NCBI GenBank assembly: GCA_018241185.1
Contig: JAFEEH010000259.1
Span: 1 to 35,062, forward strand
Direction of reading: 5' to 3'
From: Pseudomonadota bacterium
GTDB taxonomy: Bacteria; Pseudomonadota; Gammaproteobacteria; Burkholderiales; Burkholderiaceae_C
Length of the DNA stretch: 35,062 bases
The stretch's first letter is position 1. Every line of letters begins with the position of its first letter. This document shows positions 13,301-21,209 of this stretch, one piece after another. A program made the position numbers and the translations under genes. Below the pieces are notes generated by a model. The model was not told the DNA's origin. It worked only from the letters and a program-made list of their open reading frames with translations, and ran no database searches.

Positions 13301-14519
13301 CCTGGCGGGCAACCGGATGGTGCTGGAGGAATTCACGCTCAAGGGTGGCCCGGGCAGCAAGGTGCGGATCCCGGGACGCGCCGGCAACCTGAGCACCAGC
13401 GCGAGCGAAGCCGCAGCCGACGGCGGCACCCTGTCCTTCAAGGGCGAGGTGGGCTGGGGCCCGGCGAACCCGACGGGCGGCGGCTCGGGCCTGTCGATGG
13501 ACATGCGCGGCGAGGTCCGGCGCCTGCGGGCGCTGGTGCGCTCCGACCGGCAGGTCACCGTGTCGGGCGACCTGCAGGCCGGGCTGAACGCGGGCCAGTT
13601 GCGGGTGCGCGGCAAGGTGACCACCGACCGCGCCGTCATCATCCTGCCGGACGAGACCGCGCCGAGCCTGGGCAGCGACGTGGTCGTCCATTCGGCGGCC
13701 AAGGAGAGCGAGGAGCGCGCCGCGGCCGAGAAACAGGCGAAGGAACGCGCTGCCCAGGACGAAGCTGCAGCAGGCCGCGTCAACCAGCCGCTGCTGGCCA
13801 AGGCGCCGGACATCGAGATCGCATTCGACCTCGGCAAGGACTTCGCGGTGCAGGGCCGCGGCATCACCACGCGGCTGGAGGGTCAGCTCGACATCCGCAC
13901 CACACAGCTGAGCGCGCCGCCCCGCGTGACCGGCGAGGTGAAAACCGTGCAGGGCCAGTACCGCGCCTACGGCCAGGAACTCGATGTCGAAAGCGGGCTG
14001 GCGCGCTTCAATGGCCCCGTGGACAACCCTGCGCTCGACATCCTCGCCATACGCCCCAACATCAGCCAGCGCGCCGGGGTGCAGATCACGGGCACGGCCC
14101 AGTCGCCACGCGTCAGGCTGTATTCCGACCCGCCCTTGCCCGACGCGCAGGCGCTGGCCTGGGTCGTGCTCGGCCGCGCCTCGGCCTCCAGCGGCGGAGA
14201 GGCGATCCTGATGCAGCAGGCGGCGCTGGCCCTGTTGGGTGGCCTCGGCAAGGGCGGCAGCGGCGGTAGCCTGGCCAGCCGCTTCGGGCTCGACGAGATC
14301 GGTTTTAAGGGGCCGGGTTCGGGTGGCGAACTGAAGGAGTCGTCGGTGACGCTCGGCAAGCGGCTGTCGAAGGACTTCTACGTGACCTACGAGCGCAGCC
14401 TGGCCGGCACCCTGGGCACGCTGTACATCTTCTACGACCTGACGCGGCGCTTGACGCTTCGCGGACAAGCGGGTCGCACCAGCGGGGTCGACCTGATCTA
14501 CACGGTCCAGTACGACTGA
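10347..14519 (+). CDS. tamB: TamB: inner-membrane-anchored bridging protein
   Basis: The protein has 1390 residues. A basic N-terminus (RRSRTRRTLRAIGW) and one membrane helix (about 31-51) anchor it in the inner membrane. The long periplasmic body is built of repeated beta segments of the AsmA/VPS13-like groove type, ending in the conserved TamB domain (QGQYRAYGQELDVESGLARFNG, GRASASSGGEAILMQQAALALL, LGKRLSKDFYVTYERSL). It partners TamA, encoded 73 bases upstream. The start is TTG 10347 with CTGGAG six bases before it. Residues about 449-472 are encoded by an inserted repeat (see 11690-11760) containing a run of nine C residues, but the frame is kept. Confidence 0.92.
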   Translation: MAHKPSDAPSQDAAAPVRRSRTRRTLRAIGWSLTSLLVLVLALVAAGWWWAGTDSSLATALARAARYLPAGQTLESREVTGSLRRGGAIGYLRWESPTMAVEVQGARIGWALRPLLRKRVQLGEVHAARIVIEPRGPKDEEKKPLEPLAPIVLPVEIDLPFSADEVLWKGPPEVRAQALAGRYVYEAQQHRLKLDGVDIADGHYSGTVQLQGAAPMALQLALEGRVQAPLNDERRIALDARATASGTLAGPDARIAIDAALRPQEQPDADHPVDAQLNARIAPWAPQPVVDALLKMRNLDVAWLLPDAPRTRLSGEVAVDPDPATGAAAWKARADVTNAEPGPWDEGRLPVEAVQAQVGYDGTVWRVAEANVQAGQGRIEAEGEWAPAPQPWQIEATVRGVHPGLLHTELAGAPISGRAKATQKDDAIAFDLALQAEGGAQAKASSAPRPQHAAAPPRGGAESSGAAQRFLEGFKLERAAAQGRWAKQVLDLRTLRIEAERASVQGQLQLRVAEQAGSGDLKATLPGGSAQVKGQIAPTQGAGEVQARIDDAAALQAWVERLPGLEKAFAGASARGSARLDASWQGGWRAIQQRLQAVNTPPADRAAEPSLKARLEAPRLDLRLPAPKAGEPAPAEIQLRGLQATLDGSLARAALTLRGEAQQGPRKLTLDTRASGGLERANQWRLALASLRTQLQDTTRSDAPWTLELAREFSSTVRVGNGQLDVESTAGGATLRGPVPGTVRIDWEPVRLRQTTSASGTALRLQSKGRMQGLPMAWSRAFGGDTSLRELGISGDLVFDGDWDIDAGDRLRAQARIARASGDLRVQAGEAALVRRIESRGTGTKSEITTDSGDDAPSTPAGLRQAELRLDAEGDAVRARLAWDSERAGQIQAEAGTRLVQQGGGWQWAEDAPLNGSVRARLPQLGVWSMLAPPGWRIAGTLSADATLAGTRNDPRWNGTLAADKLALKAAVEGLDLRDGRLRARLAGNRMVLEEFTLKGGPGSKVRIPGRAGNLSTSASEAAADGGTLSFKGEVGWGPANPTGGGSGLSMDMRGEVRRLRALVRSDRQVTVSGDLQAGLNAGQLRVRGKVTTDRAVIILPDETAPSLGSDVVVHSAAKESEERAAAEKQAKERAAQDEAAAGRVNQPLLAKAPDIEIAFDLGKDFAVQGRGITTRLEGQLDIRTTQLSAPPRVTGEVKTVQGQYRAYGQELDVESGLARFNGPVDNPALDILAIRPNISQRAGVQITGTAQSPRVRLYSDPPLPDAQALAWVVLGRASASSGGEAILMQQAALALLGGLGKGGSGGSLASRFGLDEIGFKGPGSGGELKESSVTLGKRLSKDFYVTYERSLAGTLGTLYIFYDLTRRLTLRGQAGRTSGVDLIYTVQYD
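11690..11760 (+). repeat. REP/BIME-like hairpin element inserted in frame in tamB
   Basis: Three hairpins follow each other inside the coding sequence: GGCCGCA (11692-11698) with TGCGGCC (11705-11711); a nine-C run (11710-11718) with GGGGG (11721-11725); and CAGAAAGC (11728-11735) with GCTTTCTG (11752-11759). The first part resembles the GGCCGC...GCGGCCCCC-GAGGGGG repeats that are abundant between genes in Comamonadaceae (recalled, not searched). The encoded peptide is Ser/Ala/Pro/Arg-rich and unlike the beta-strand pattern on either side, which fits insertion of a multiple of three bases. Confidence 0.65.
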
Positions 14520-15211: not shown

Positions 15212-15338
15212 GGCGGGCTCCTTTCGCTGAATCAAGAAAACCCCATGCTGCGAAGCCGCGCGCATCGTGCAGGTAGGCGGGGCCGGCCACCGGTTGTCGG
15301 CGGGCCCGCACGGCCGCGCTTTGGCCTGTTCGATTTAC

Positions 15339-15453
15339 TCAGCCGACGTTCAGGTGCCATCGGCACACTGGGATCTCGGCAGCCCGGCGTCTCTTCCGAC
15401 TCCTCCTCCCGTCTATCGGGCTGCTGTTGACCCGCTTCGGCGGGTTTTCTTTT
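15339..15453 (+). ncRNA. Candidate small RNA, copy A (anti-Shine-Dalgarno loop plus terminator)
   Basis: GCAGCCCG (15379-15386) pairs with CGGGCTGC (15417-15424), extended by a G-U and a C-G pair. It closes a 30-base CU-rich loop containing CTCCTCCTCCC (15400-15410), complementary to ribosome binding sites. Five bases later ACCCGC-TTCG-GCGGGT plus TTTCTTTT forms a terminator. A sister copy lies at 16010-16125. The boxes TCAGCC (15339) and CACA (15364) are placed equally in both copies, so I start the feature at TCAGCC; the true 5' end is not known. The gap 15212-15527 holds nothing else I can identify. Confidence 0.55.
15430..15453 (+). terminator. Terminator of small-RNA copy A
   Basis: The six-base-pair stem ACCCGC/GCGGGT (15430-15435 with 15440-15445) is closed by a TTCG tetraloop and followed by TTTCTTTT. 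There is no plus-strand protein gene upstream within 900 bases, so it most likely ends a non-coding transcript. Confidence 0.7.
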
Positions 15454-15527
15454 GGGCGAGCGTCGACCGTCGGGGGAAAGAAAGTGGCGGACGTACCGCC
15501 GCGGGCTGCTGCAGGCAGTGAATCCGC

Positions 15528-15845
15528 TCAGGCCAGTTGACCGAAGGACGACAGCCGCTGGCGCAGGCGGCCGCCCACGCTGTGCGCCCAGGGACCGACC
15601 GGCCGCTTGGCGACGTGGCACCAATGGCGCCATTGGCGGCGTACGCCCACCCATACGGCGCGCCGCGCATGGGCCTTGGATTGGCGCAACTCGGCCTGCC
15701 GGCGGCATTCGGCCGCGATGCGCAGGCCTTCCGCCACGCGTTCGGCCGCTTCGTCGCCCCACCCTTGGCGCAACCCGGCGATGCACGCCAGGTCGGCCGC
15801 GCTCAGGCGCGTGAGGAACAGCTGGAAGTCGCGATCGGTGGTCAT
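15528..15845 (-). CDS. Hypothetical protein between the two small-RNA copies
   Basis: The protein has 105 residues from ATG 15845. An in-frame start at 15881 exists but precedes atypical sequence. The N-terminal half is helical (DFQLFLTRLSAADLACIAGL, then GDEAAERVAEGLRIAAECRRQAELRQ); the C-terminal half is rich in Arg and Trp (RRAVWVGVRRQWRHWCHVAKR), suggesting nucleic-acid or membrane contact. I do not recognise a family. The ribosome binding site is weak. An inverted repeat (15885-15900) lies 40 bases upstream of its start. Confidence 0.5.
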   Translation of the reverse strand: MTTDRDFQLFLTRLSAADLACIAGLRQGWGDEAAERVAEGLRIAAECRRQAELRQSKAHARRAVWVGVRRQWRHWCHVAKRPVGPWAHSVGGRLRQRLSSFGQLA

Positions 15846-15884
15846 GGCGAGGTGCGGTTGGGGTGCCCGACGATAACGCACAAA

Positions 15885-15900
15885 TGAACACTTAGGTTCA
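15885..15900. promoter_or_regulatory. Inverted repeat, possible operator
   Basis: TGAAC (15885-15889) and GTTCA (15896-15900) form a perfect five-base inverted repeat with a six-base spacer. It lies upstream of the minus-strand gene at 15845 and overlaps the -35 box of a plus-strand promoter candidate. The regulator is unknown. Confidence 0.3.
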
Positions 15901-15925
15901 CAAAATTAAACCTTGGTAGTACTTT
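15897..15925 (+). promoter_or_regulatory. Candidate promoter reading toward small-RNA copy B
   Basis: TTCACA (15897-15902) and TACTTT (15920-15925) are 17 bases apart, in an AT-rich patch within GC-rich DNA. A transcript starting near 15932 and ending at the terminator at 16125 would be about 190 bases. The remainder of the gene-free stretch 15846-16235 shows no open frame that I trust. Confidence 0.35.
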
Positions 15926-16009
15926 TTCTCGATGCCACGAAGTTCTGTGCCAGGTGAGTTCCTGTTTCGCGAGCAGCCGCGCGGCGGCGCGCCGGAGGGG
16001 GCGCCCGCT

Positions 16010-16125
16010 TCAGCCTCGCTTAAGTCGACGCCGTCACAGTCCATTCCTGCAGCCCTTGTCTCTTCTCCTCCTCCCTCCTCGTATGAAGGGCTGCCTTCAA
16101 CCCGCTTCGGCGGGTTGTCTTTTTT
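16010..16125 (+). ncRNA. Candidate small RNA, copy B (anti-Shine-Dalgarno loop plus terminator)
   Basis: The architecture matches copy A. TCAGCC is at 16010, CACA 25 bases later, then GCAGCCCTT (16049-16057) pairs with AAGGGCTGC (16086-16094) around a 28-base loop containing TCTCCTCCTCCCTCCTC. A four-base spacer leads to AACCCGC-TTCG-GCGGGTT and a T-rich tail. Relative to copy A, the inner stem changes from CCCG/CGGG to CCCTT/AAGGG on both sides, so pairing is preserved while sequence differs. The loop words GTCTCTTC and TCCTCCTCCC are shared. Confidence 0.55.
16099..16125 (+). terminator. Terminator of small-RNA copy B
   Basis: AACCCGC (16099-16105), TTCG, GCGGGTT (16110-16116), then GTCTTTTTT. 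The hairpin is nearly identical to that at 15430 and to the minus-strand terminator at 21166. Confidence 0.75.
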
Positions 16126-16235
16126 CCAGCATGGGTTTTCGGGTTCGGCAAGGCCACCTTGGACAGTGTTGCAGTCCTACGAATCCCTGAGCGAAAGCGC
16201 CTGGCAGGCGCGCGGGACTCGGCCAGAATGGCTTC

Positions 16236-16619
16236 ATGCAACCCCGACCCGGCGGCACCGCCGACATCGATGCGAAGGCCATGCGCCTCAGGGACGTGGC
16301 CCGATGGCTGACCGACTGGAAGGACGCGCATCGCTGGAATTCCGGCTCCGCCAGTCTTCTGCGTCGTCTGCTGTGGGCGTATGCGGGCGCCGGTGCGGTC
16401 GCCCTGGCGCTTGTTCCCATCAGCGCGCATGGATGGATGGGCTCGCGCGCGGATGCGCTGGCGGCCTTGTACACGCTGGTGTTGGCACTCCCGTGGACGC
16501 CGCTGCTGCTCTTGGTTCCAGGGAATTCCGCGTGGGCAGGTGCGGCGCTTCTGGCATCGGCCATCGCCCTGAACCTGTGGGCCGGGATCACCGTGCTGCG
16601 CTGGATCGAGGACCGCTGA
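16236..16619 (+). CDS. Small integral membrane protein
   Basis: The protein has 127 residues. A soluble N-terminus (about 40 residues, with RLRDVARWLTDWKDAHRWN) precedes three hydrophobic stretches at about 45-63, 75-93 and 98-120. I do not recognise a family. An internal ATG at 16281 (MRLRDVARW) is an alternative start. It is the last host gene before the tRNA fragment and prophage. Confidence 0.55.
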   Translation: MQPRPGGTADIDAKAMRLRDVARWLTDWKDAHRWNSGSASLLRRLLWAYAGAGAVALALVPISAHGWMGSRADALAALYTLVLALPWTPLLLLVPGNSAWAGAALLASAIALNLWAGITVLRWIEDR

Positions 16620-19433: not shown

Positions 19434-19682
19434 TCAGCGCGGCCACGCCTCTAGGAGTGCCGCCCGGCGGTCCTGCTCGCACCAATAGGCGCCCATCCAC
19501 TGCACCGCCCACGCCGCCAGATCCTGAGCCGTAGCTTTCGCCTTCAAAGCATCAGGAACCAGGCACGGCATTGTCAGGAGAACAGGCGGGGGATCGACCT
19601 TGGCGGGCGCACTCCCTTGCATCGTTGAGCACGCGGATAGCCCCATCAGGTAGAACACAGGCAGCAAGCGGCGCAGTGGCAT
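19434..19682 (-). CDS. Rz1-like outer-membrane spanin lipoprotein
   Basis: The protein has 82 residues from ATG 19682. It has a short signal with lipobox GLSAC (Cys ~19), then a Pro-containing linker (KVDPPPVLL) and a helical C-terminus. The gene starts inside the Rz gene in another frame and continues 118 bases past its end, the usual nested Rz/Rz1 layout. Rz1 joins Rz across the periplasm and fuses the membranes in the last step of lysis. Confidence 0.75.
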   Translation of the reverse strand: MPLRRLLPVFYLMGLSACSTMQGSAPAKVDPPPVLLTMPCLVPDALKAKATAQDLAAWAVQWMGAYWCEQDRRAALLEAWPR

Positions 19683-19947
19683 CGCGGACCCTCTCGACGG
19701 TTTTGGTGATGTAGATGGTGCGGGCCGGCTCTCGCTGGGCCTGCGCCTGCTCGGCGGCCTGTGAACGGCTGCGGTTGGCCTGTCGCTGTGTCTCGGCCTG
19801 GTGCTCAGTGTTGAGCTTGTAGTCGGCCAGCTTCTCCCTCGCGCGCGCCCCACCCTGCCGCCACCCGAAGGCGAACACGGTAGCCAGCACGGCGCCGCCC
19901 AGCAGCAACCAGGCCCAGGAGGGGAAGAGCTTGAGCAGCCCGCTCAC
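19552..19947 (-). CDS. Rz-like inner-membrane spanin
   Basis: The protein has 131 residues starting at GTG 19947, which overlaps the endolysin stop (GTGA). The N-terminal membrane helix (SWAWLLLGGAVLATVFAFGW) is followed by a charged coiled coil (ARAREKLADYKLNTEHQAET, then QAEEQAQ-like repeats) and a globular end with two cysteine pairs. This is the standard i-spanin plan. It works with the Rz1 product nested downstream. Confidence 0.75.
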   Translation of the reverse strand: MSGLLKLFPSWAWLLLGGAVLATVFAFGWRQGGARAREKLADYKLNTEHQAETQRQANRSRSQAAEQAQAQREPARTIYITKTVERVRDATAPLAACVLPDGAIRVLNDARECARQGRSPACSPDNAVPGS

Positions 19948-20447
19948 GACGCCAGCCCAAGGAATCGCCGGCTGGCCAGGTGATAGCTGGGCCAAGTCTG
20001 CGCATGCGGCTTTCCAGGGCGCCAGGTGCGCACGTAGTAATTCCAAGCCGAGTCGACCGCCTTCACGTCCGGCAAGGGCTTGGGGTCGGTGAACAGCAGC
20101 AGGCGGGCCAGCCCGGCCGCGAGCACGTCGTCGTTCTCGATCGCGCGCCAGATGGCGTCGGCCTCGAACGGCACGCCGCGGGCCTCACACAGCATGCGGG
20201 CGAGGCTGGCCACGGCCGGATGCGTCATGACACCCTTCACGCCACCGCCGCGCTCGAATTGCCAGAACCCCATCGCCGGGCCCGTAGGCTGTGGCGGGCT
20301 GCCGACCATCTGCCGGCGGTACTGGAAGCGGCTTTCCTGCTGGCCGATGGTCAGGAGCATGACCCGGGCCTCATAGCTGTCCATGCGGGCAGGCAGAAGC
20401 GCCAGGGCGGGATTGATCCCCCGCTCTGTGATCTCGGTGAGAGTCAT
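19944..20447 (-). CDS. Phage endolysin, lytic-transglycosylase-like
   Basis: The protein has 167 residues without a signal peptide. LLTIGQQESRFQYRRQM with Glu38 fits the catalytic glutamate of the goose-lysozyme/soluble transglycosylase type, followed by GPAMGFWQFERGGGV, where these enzymes have an A.G..Q pattern. It would cut the peptidoglycan glycan strands after the holin opens the inner membrane. The start is ATG 20447, two bases short of the upstream membrane-protein stop. The C-terminal WNYYVRTWRPGKP is typical of phage members. Confidence 0.75.
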   Translation of the reverse strand: MTLTEITERGINPALALLPARMDSYEARVMLLTIGQQESRFQYRRQMVGSPPQPTGPAMGFWQFERGGGVKGVMTHPAVASLARMLCEARGVPFEADAIWRAIENDDVLAAGLARLLLFTDPKPLPDVKAVDSAWNYYVRTWRPGKPHAQTWPSYHLASRRFLGLAS

Positions 20448-21165: not shown

Positions 21166-21190
21166 AAAAGAAAACCCGCCGAAGCGGGTT
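21166..21190 (-). terminator. Terminator after the fucosyltransferase-like gene
   Basis: On the minus strand, AACCCGC (21190-21184), loop TTCG, GCGGGTT, then TTCTTTT. It separates the cargo gene at 21210 from the lysis genes and is the same hairpin as in the two small-RNA candidates. Confidence 0.8.
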
Positions 21191-21209
21191 GGATCTCGTT
21201 CAATAGACG

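Follow-up and report, generated by a model that had tools for sequence, protein, structure and literature searches.

The stretch of DNA analysed here (35,062 nucleotides of contig JAFEEH010000259.1 from a Pseudomonadota bacterium; hereafter, the window) contains, judging from its sequence, two sibling small RNA (sRNA) genes on the plus strand, each consisting of a hairpin with a loop rich in C and U (CU-rich) and a UUCG terminator. We consider it probable that these siblings are activated by a response regulator, are transcribed from promoters of their own, and block ribosome-binding sites. Sequence comparison supports their gene boundaries, their structure, the invariance of their loops, the geometry of their promoters, and the separate conservation of the two copies.

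The first gene (sRNA 1) extends from 15378 to 15453 and the second (sRNA 2) from 16048 to 16125; each comprises a stem, a loop, a terminator, and a T-run, was delimited by sequence, folding, conservation, and covariation, and has a predicted length of about 76 nt. The stem of sRNA 1 has 8 bp (GCAGCCCG at 15379-15386 with CGGGCTGC at 15417-15424) and that of sRNA 2 has 9 bp (GCAGCCCTT at 16049-16057 with AAGGGCTGC at 16086-16094), and both close with GCAGCCC/GGGCTGC. The stems enclose a 30-nt loop at 15387..15416, which reads GTCTCTTC ... CTCCTCCTCCC and resembles an anti-Shine-Dalgarno sequence, and a 28-nt loop at 16058..16085 (GTCTCTTCTCCTCCTCCCTCCTCGTATG), in which the CCTCC motifs are predicted to be unpaired. 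A terminator hairpin, CCCGC-TTCG-GCGGG followed by a T-run, is found 4 nt past the stem in copy 1 (15429-15446) and 3 nt past it in copy 2 (16098-16117). The original prediction, made from the letters of the window alone, had given the same coordinates for both hairpin-terminator units and had named the motifs GTCTCTTC and TCCTCCTCCC as common to both loops, and re-reading the sequence showed it to be right on both counts; its terminator spacing of four to five bases holds for copy 1 and not for copy 2. Among the five terminator-like sites listed between 14500 and 16800, those of the sRNA pair have the most G-C-rich stems with T-runs.

When copy 2 is folded over 16049-16128, it reaches a z of -6.1 relative to shuffled sequences and forms its 9-bp stem with an open 28-nt loop. 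Copy 1, folded over 15379-15456, has a z of -2.3 and an 8-bp stem, and its 30-nt loop can partly pair internally; its stem is absent from the predicted fold once the folded segment is extended upstream past the inferred start (15339-15456). With regard to a possible peptide, an ATG at the end of the loop of copy 2 (16083-16085, plus strand) is kept in the aligned genomes, and the hairpin of copy 1 has no ATG.

Both copies lie in a syntenic block that is shared by five genomes of the same genus (G001, G006, G007, G008, and G010). The order of the block is a TamB homologue, two small minus-strand genes, sRNA 1, a gene for a 117-aa protein on the minus strand (15528..15881), sRNA 2, and a gene for a 127-aa protein on the plus strand. 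The earlier claim of a duplication around an unknown gene read from the opposite strand is therefore borne out, as the pair and the gene are syntenic in five relatives. The 117-aa protein is 80-88% identical in amino acids in these five genomes, and at the thresholds used neither Pfam, NCBIfam, nor PHROG gave a match for it. Conservation was calculated from the window and four distinct relatives, G007 being left out as near-identical to G006. All loop positions are invariant in this set (30 of 30 in sRNA 1 and 28 of 28 in sRNA 2), as are 23 of the 24 positions of the linker and terminator of copy 1 and 22 of the 25 of copy 2, whereas the coding gene between the copies is 82% identical; the RNA is therefore better kept than its protein-coding neighbour. 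Identity of the flanking sequences is 63% on the 5' side of copy 1, 43% on its 3' side, and 69% on the 3' side of copy 2. These comparisons support the view that the sRNAs are apparently standalone genes, retained in duplicate on either side of a conserved gene of unknown function that is read from the opposite strand.

The surroundings of the copies also bear on two explanations in which they would act on their neighbours. The first is that they act in cis, attenuating or terminating the messages next to them, a view favoured by the position of sRNA 2, which lies 110 nt upstream of the plus-strand gene starting at 16236. However, the nearest plus-strand gene upstream of the pair, the TamB homologue, ends at 14519, and two opposite-strand genes lie in between; we tested whether the copies are only the terminators of longer messages, and they are not terminators of upstream plus-strand genes. 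In addition, the family is found at unrelated loci, and for nine of 18 sRNAs at 17 places, sRNA 1 and eight other members, the next downstream gene is on the opposite strand according to heuristic gene calls, which makes a leader or cis role unlikely. Altogether, we regard the cis explanation as highly improbable. The second is antisense control of the flanking gene at 15528-15881, which converges on sRNA 1 and is syntenic with it in six genomes. We give this explanation hardly any credence: sRNA 1 ends 75 nt before the gene, and the 117-aa protein was not found at six loci of the genus where a variant with a CTTGATTCCCCC-like loop is present (see below).

The original prediction had also described an inner stem that differs between the copies in a compensatory way. 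Between the copies, pair 8 is a clean double change (G-C versus U-A) and pair 9 is G-U versus U-A, and the main compensatory evidence comes from the stems of relatives, in which paired changes were sought and are present. In a structure-blind alignment of 17 sequences from several genera, five of the 15 pairs change on both sides, a value reached by 1 of 500 shuffles, and the covariation score is 0.145 versus 0.097, with no shuffle of 500 as high. When 28 members are aligned to the model (26 distinct rows), nine of the 15 pairs change on both sides, including seven of the eight in the stem of the loop. The distinct rows contain 22 cells with changes on both sides versus 5.5 expected (0 of 500 shuffles as high) and 17 further pair types versus 13.7 (6 of 500). 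It is important to note that the 28-member alignment leans towards the structure and that shuffles ignore kinship; the scale is given by sliding the structure by one to three columns, which leaves at most three pairs that change on both sides.

Upstream of each copy there is a direct repeat with a period of 11, followed after 10 nt by a -10-like hexamer. The repeat of sRNA 1, ACTCAG-N5-GTTCAG (15337..15353, plus strand), is a predicted response-regulator box that matches PmrA sites loosely, and its hexamer is CACACT (15364..15369), which would place the transcription start near 15376-15378. The repeat of sRNA 2, CTTCAG-N5-CTTAAG (16008..16024, plus strand), is a predicted PmrA-type response-regulator box followed by CACAGT (16035..16040), and a promoter-only model (R3) finds it at 20.8 bits (E 0.003). 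In each copy, 25 of the 33 positions of the box and -10 stretch are invariant (15338-15370 in copy 1). The two upstream boxes described earlier are thus kept, and their number is in fact three: two half-sites 11 bp apart and the hexamer.

This geometry recurs in Xenophilus, Variovorax, Pseudorhodoferax, and other genera. In 18 member promoters, which were picked for fitting the pattern, the half-sites are 11 bp apart, the hexamer (nAnAnT) follows after 10 nt, and the stem begins 7-8 nt later (11 in the member L082). The strict box-plus-hexamer form is found in 27 of 35 member rows, one of them with a 9-nt spacing; there is much near-duplication among these rows. The best-kept wording, found in Variovorax and its relatives, is CTTAAG or TTTAAG, N5, and CCTAAG, which resembles the PmrA sites reported in the available part of PMC10927774: TTTAAG-N5-TTTAAG in Acinetobacter, YTTAAK repeats in Salmonella, and CTTAAT with CCTAAG in Klebsiella. 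The half-sites of copy 2 fit YTTAAK-N5-YTTAAK at 11 of 12 positions. Between 14500 and 16800, a sigma-70 consensus promoter was looked for and not found, as would be expected were an activator to stand in for the -35 element. The activator PhoP, of the two-component class, is described in the consulted portion of PMC3335776 as recognising hexamer repeats five nucleotides apart that can overlap the -35.

The extent of the family was determined with a covariance model of the RNA (R1) and a second model that includes the promoter (R2), both run over whole genomes. This search, suggested with the original prediction, yielded members in 13 of 15 genomes of the genus and in at least 13 of 399 genomes of the family. 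In the window's own 5.3-Mb genome, the R2 scores of the two copies, which had both trained the model, are 96 and 98 bits, compared with 22 bits for the runner-up. Clear R1 members in the genus include those of the window's own genome, and R1 finds no member in G002. The syntenic pair is present in six genomes, that of the window included. Six other genomes of the genus have, at another locus, the variant with the CTTGATTCCCCC-like loop together with a match of a third type, whose terminator is different and which was read in five of the six. The member of G003 has the stem GCAGCTC/GAGCTGC.

In the family, R2 retrieves 14 genomes at E<=1e-4, one of which (L126 in G036) shows only the terminator, leaving 13; this count is a lower bound, since strict filters lose members, and L082, found with R1, is missing from the R2 list. 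R1 matches 93 of 250 family genomes at E<=0.01, which is not a member count because most of the loci read are UUCG terminators without a CU hairpin. One such match, weak, is in the window itself, where a plain UUCG terminator at 21166-21208 (minus strand) is not preceded by a CU hairpin. Scanning named genomes for a DNA pattern gave 13 stretches, adding Variovorax paradoxus ISL-79, Variovorax sp. YR216 (two copies), and Variovorax sp. WS11; one stretch, from Paenibacillus (L109), was taken as chance. In the order, seven of 300 genomes match R2 at E<=1e-3, the window's own included; the other six reach at most 38.7 bits, and no clear member was found outside the family among these 300 genomes.

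Some loci at the edge of the family are worth describing. Outside it, L160 (G630) and L161 (G547) are double hairpins with CU loops, unrelated stems, and no box, and L162 (G437) has GTAAG-N6-GTAAG-N10-TATGCT before a different hairpin and a UUCG terminator; L163-L165 were judged by eye to be non-members. A doubtful relative, L057 (G014:C6:70402-70462; 29.8 bits), has a GCCAGCCC/GGGCTGGC hairpin whose loop contains CTCCTCC; it directly follows the stop of a reading frame, shows no box by eye in the preceding 60 nt, and was left out. Two family sRNAs adjoin fasciclin-domain genes (L082, identified by Pfam, and L067, by eye), and a third (L111) is divergent from a DUF4331 gene; shared control of these sRNAs and their neighbours is possible. 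In the window, about 3.3 kb from sRNA 2, overlapping Rz-like spanin genes with weak PHROG matches (19434-20447, minus strand) lie beside a phage protein (phrog_3108, 5.6e-45), which points to a prophage lysis region.

A Trans_reg_C domain is encoded at 25 loci of the genome that contains the window, and period-11 repeats are found seven times in the 79.9 kb of these OmpR-type regulator loci versus two in 88.6 kb and one in 61.2 kb of controls, which are other loci of the same genus; not all seven sit at a promoter. Our best candidate for the partner regulator, proposed from sequence, is an operon at G000:C249:9295-9972 that encodes a PmrA/QseB-like regulator and a QseC/PmrB-like kinase. CTAAG-N6-CTAAG is present upstream of the operon in six of six orthologues (96% identity or more) and is lacking in all 11 homologues of lower similarity. 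The genomes with the repeat-bearing operon, six in number, are exactly those with the syntenic sRNA pair, which is weak evidence because they may be one clade. The regulator of a second locus (L199), where TTAAG-N6-TTAAG lies just before the start, may be an alternative candidate.

The promoter-only model, run over five genomes, gave 31 sites at E<=3, of which 10 are sRNA promoters, six of them having trained the model. Five others, one per genome (L218 at G000:C264:3312-3345, L216, L228, L233, and L234), precede a 114-aa open reading frame without a known Pfam family, and the repeat and the -10 are present in all five genomes, making this frame a possible regulon partner of the sRNAs. Another five, also one per genome, follow a patatin-like gene; in four of them the next gene encodes an acetoacetate decarboxylase (adc; assigned by PF06314 in one and by sequence in the others), and G006 has a different sequence beyond the box. 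Four sites (L229 at G000:C159:8036-8060, L223, L227, and L230) share a perfectly kept CTTAAGCCTGGCCTAAGTC between a helicase-like and an MFS-like gene; the site is oriented against both neighbours in the genomes read and may mark another regulated transcript. The remaining seven fall outside these groups. The patatin, RNA helicase, and MFS genes, and a gene after adc that we take to be 3-hydroxybutyrate dehydrogenase-like, were recognised by eye, and their names are to be read as presumed.

The loops suggest what the RNAs would do. The CCUCC is the core of the 16S rRNA tail, and CCTCC is found in 30 of 35 members, with a predicted unpaired probability of 0.73-1.0. The content of C and U is 72-88% in the 11 loops analysed, whose duplexes with the consensus Shine-Dalgarno sequence have energies of -9.9 to -11.7 kcal/mol. 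We infer transcription, the identity of the regulator, pairing with ribosome-binding sites, and repression as its outcome. When the sensor kinase fires, the PmrA/QseB-like response regulator would act at the repeat upstream of the -10, and transcription of the sRNAs would rise. Each RNA would start at the foot of the hairpin, which would hold the long CU-rich loop open, and would end at the UUCG terminator. The loop could then pair with the ribosome-binding sites of target mRNAs (GGAGG or GAAGAGAC-like) and block initiation, so that the sRNA pair would form a negative post-transcriptional arm of a two-component regulon.

The same loops could instead act as sponges, in which a long single-stranded CU stretch titrates an RNA-binding protein with no base-pairing. 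The invariance of the loop letters in the genus, even outside the anti-Shine-Dalgarno-like parts, would fit this explanation, and several copies under one regulator recall the generally known sponges of the Csr type. Nevertheless, we consider it unlikely, as the two loops of the window contain no GGA motif, other genera alter the wording of the loop and keep its CU composition, and these bacteria are not known to us to have a translational repressor specific for CU sequences.

Several observations weigh against sRNAs that are activated by a response regulator and block ribosome-binding sites. With regard to structure, the hairpin of copy 1 taken alone (15370-15430) has a z of -0.9, with 40 of 200 shuffles equally good; in the first 13 rows of the genus, two pairs change, which is not beyond shuffles (177 of 500); and L082 is the sole row behind three of the nine pairs with changes on both sides in the 26-row set. 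With regard to the promoter, the half-sites of copy 1 fit YTTAAK at only 7 of 12 positions, although their spacing and conservation fit, and the promoter-only model finds this box at 15.7 bits (E 0.14). Eight of the 35 members miss the strict pattern: CCAG-N6-CCCAG at 9 nt is found in five CTTGATTCCCCC-like variants, G338 has TTAAG-N6-CTAAG ahead of a different hexamer, and no repeat of this kind is seen in G227b and G135. The candidate regulator scores 239 bits against the PmrA equivalog, whose cut-off is 330, and 216 bits against QseB, also below the cut-off; no homologue of it was found at E<=1e-70 in G003 and G005, which carry the sRNA; and the match between sRNA pair and regulator orthologue may reflect only common descent. 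Finally, five of the 35 members lack CCTCC, and pairing with the Shine-Dalgarno sequence is only slightly better than in composition-matched shuffles (10 of 11 loops below the mean, none individually striking). The anti-Shine-Dalgarno role therefore rests on composition, accessibility, and analogy, and the wording of the loop is itself no proof.

We rate the finding as a known logic in a new sRNA family with a new link to a promoter. No study of this family was found in the literature searched, which consisted of open-licence papers and included those on Comamonadaceae and Variovorax. If our reading is true, the Comamonadaceae, Variovorax included, gain an sRNA family that is defined and whose promoters follow a code that can be read, a two-component system is tied to the control of translation, and the family may be another independent convergence of short RNAs on an anti-Shine-Dalgarno loop. 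The siblings have different loops, each of them frozen, which makes the choice of targets by a generic loop directly testable. It should be kept in mind that shared ancestry inflates some of the agreements and that the genome counts are lower bounds. A broader proposal, which we advance only tentatively and hold to be somewhat less probable than its negation, is that of a dedicated two-component circuit of the Comamonadaceae in which the PmrA/QseB-like regulator would activate two sRNAs that mimic the ribosome and, along with them, metabolic genes (adc and the gene of the 114-aa protein), the sRNAs silencing certain messages by way of the Shine-Dalgarno sequences of these messages; this RNA arm would be specific to the lineage, without descent from RF02278, CcsR, or LhrC, and the anti-Shine-Dalgarno loops would be convergent.

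Comparison with known RNAs began with Rfam, which lists nothing at its gathering threshold in the window. Sub-threshold matches to GlsR17, sX12, rsmX, and Xoo8 were taken as chance, and those to RF02278 and anti-hemB as analogues. The anti-hemB RNA (RF02837; ncS04) of Burkholderia also has a CU-rich loop and a terminator, but its model has an extra hairpin, and copy 2 reaches only 16.7 of the 49.5 bits needed for gathering.

The betaproteobacterial toxic or double-hairpin sRNAs of RF02278 (ncS03, ncS05, ncS27, and ncS62, and S17 of Bordetella) resemble the window family, according to the sections of their descriptions that were available, in their two hairpins, CU-rich unpaired stretches, multiple copies, and presence in Burkholderiales. 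In the same sections, they measure 57-92 nt in B. cenocepacia, and their CU-rich stretches are complementary to ribosome-binding sites. Their first CU stretch lies 5' of a CCACC/GGTGG hairpin, whereas the window family has its CU sequence in one loop of about 23-32 nt, behind a PmrA-like repeat; in sequence and fold, both window copies lack the 5' single-stranded UGUCUCCUCC and the CCACC/GGUGG hairpin. The copies could still be diverged members of RF02278 that share its descent and targets, given the same size class, the two hairpins, the CU-rich unpaired stretches, and a weak alignment of copy 2 (18.6 bits). We find this quite unlikely, since that score is far below the gathering score of 50 bits and copy 1 is not listed at all. 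RF02278 itself exceeds its cut-off in 92 of 250 genomes of the order and, at a separate locus, in 14 of 15 genomes of the genus (for instance, L167 at G001:C4:496790-496852); the copy in the window's own genome (L180, G000:C108:79907-79967) scores 44.4 bits, below 50. Upstream of RF02278 loci (120 nt, readable in 34 of 40), there are two loose period-11 repeats and no repeat with a -10 at the spacing of our family. As RF02278 occupies separate loci, without this promoter in those read, the family described here is an addition and not the same RNA.

As analogues, the RF02278 RNAs indicate what such loops can do. The accessible text of PMC5688073 reports that 55-80% of the predicted interactions of the Burkholderia double-hairpin RNAs are around start codons, and that overexpression of ncS27 slows growth, the opposite effect being obtained with the reverse complement of its CU region. 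Toxicity or slowed growth on overexpression is known for members of RF02278 only. Deletion of S17 in Bordetella raises 91 genes, 70 of which match single-stranded regions of S17, as stated in the part of PMC11722255 consulted.

The original prediction had compared the copies with the alphaproteobacterial CcsR (cuckoo) RNAs, which are likewise several homologous short RNAs with CCUCC-type loops. Kinship with them is not supported: DUF1127 has no match in the six window proteins scanned around the copies, and each window RNA comes with a conserved promoter-like region and a terminator of its own rather than a place in a DUF1127 operon. The upstream region of the window copies, a repeat and a -10-like hexamer, seems unlike RpoH sites. 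CcsR, in contrast, is co-transcribed with a DUF1127 gene as a ccaF1-CcsR precursor from an RpoHI/RpoHII promoter and processed by RNase E, according to the available portion of PMC10253847.

By analogy, closer comparisons than CcsR are RF02278 and, for the logic of control, LhrC of Listeria. Rfam scans listed no LhrC match, and LhrC is compared by function only; to our knowledge, it shares no sequence with the window family. It belongs to another phylum and has three redundant UCCC sites. In the accessible part of PMC4132741, LhrC1-5 of Listeria monocytogenes are described as multicopy CU-rich sRNAs that bind the Shine-Dalgarno region of a target and depend on the two-component system LisRK, which makes them the analogue of the control proposed here.

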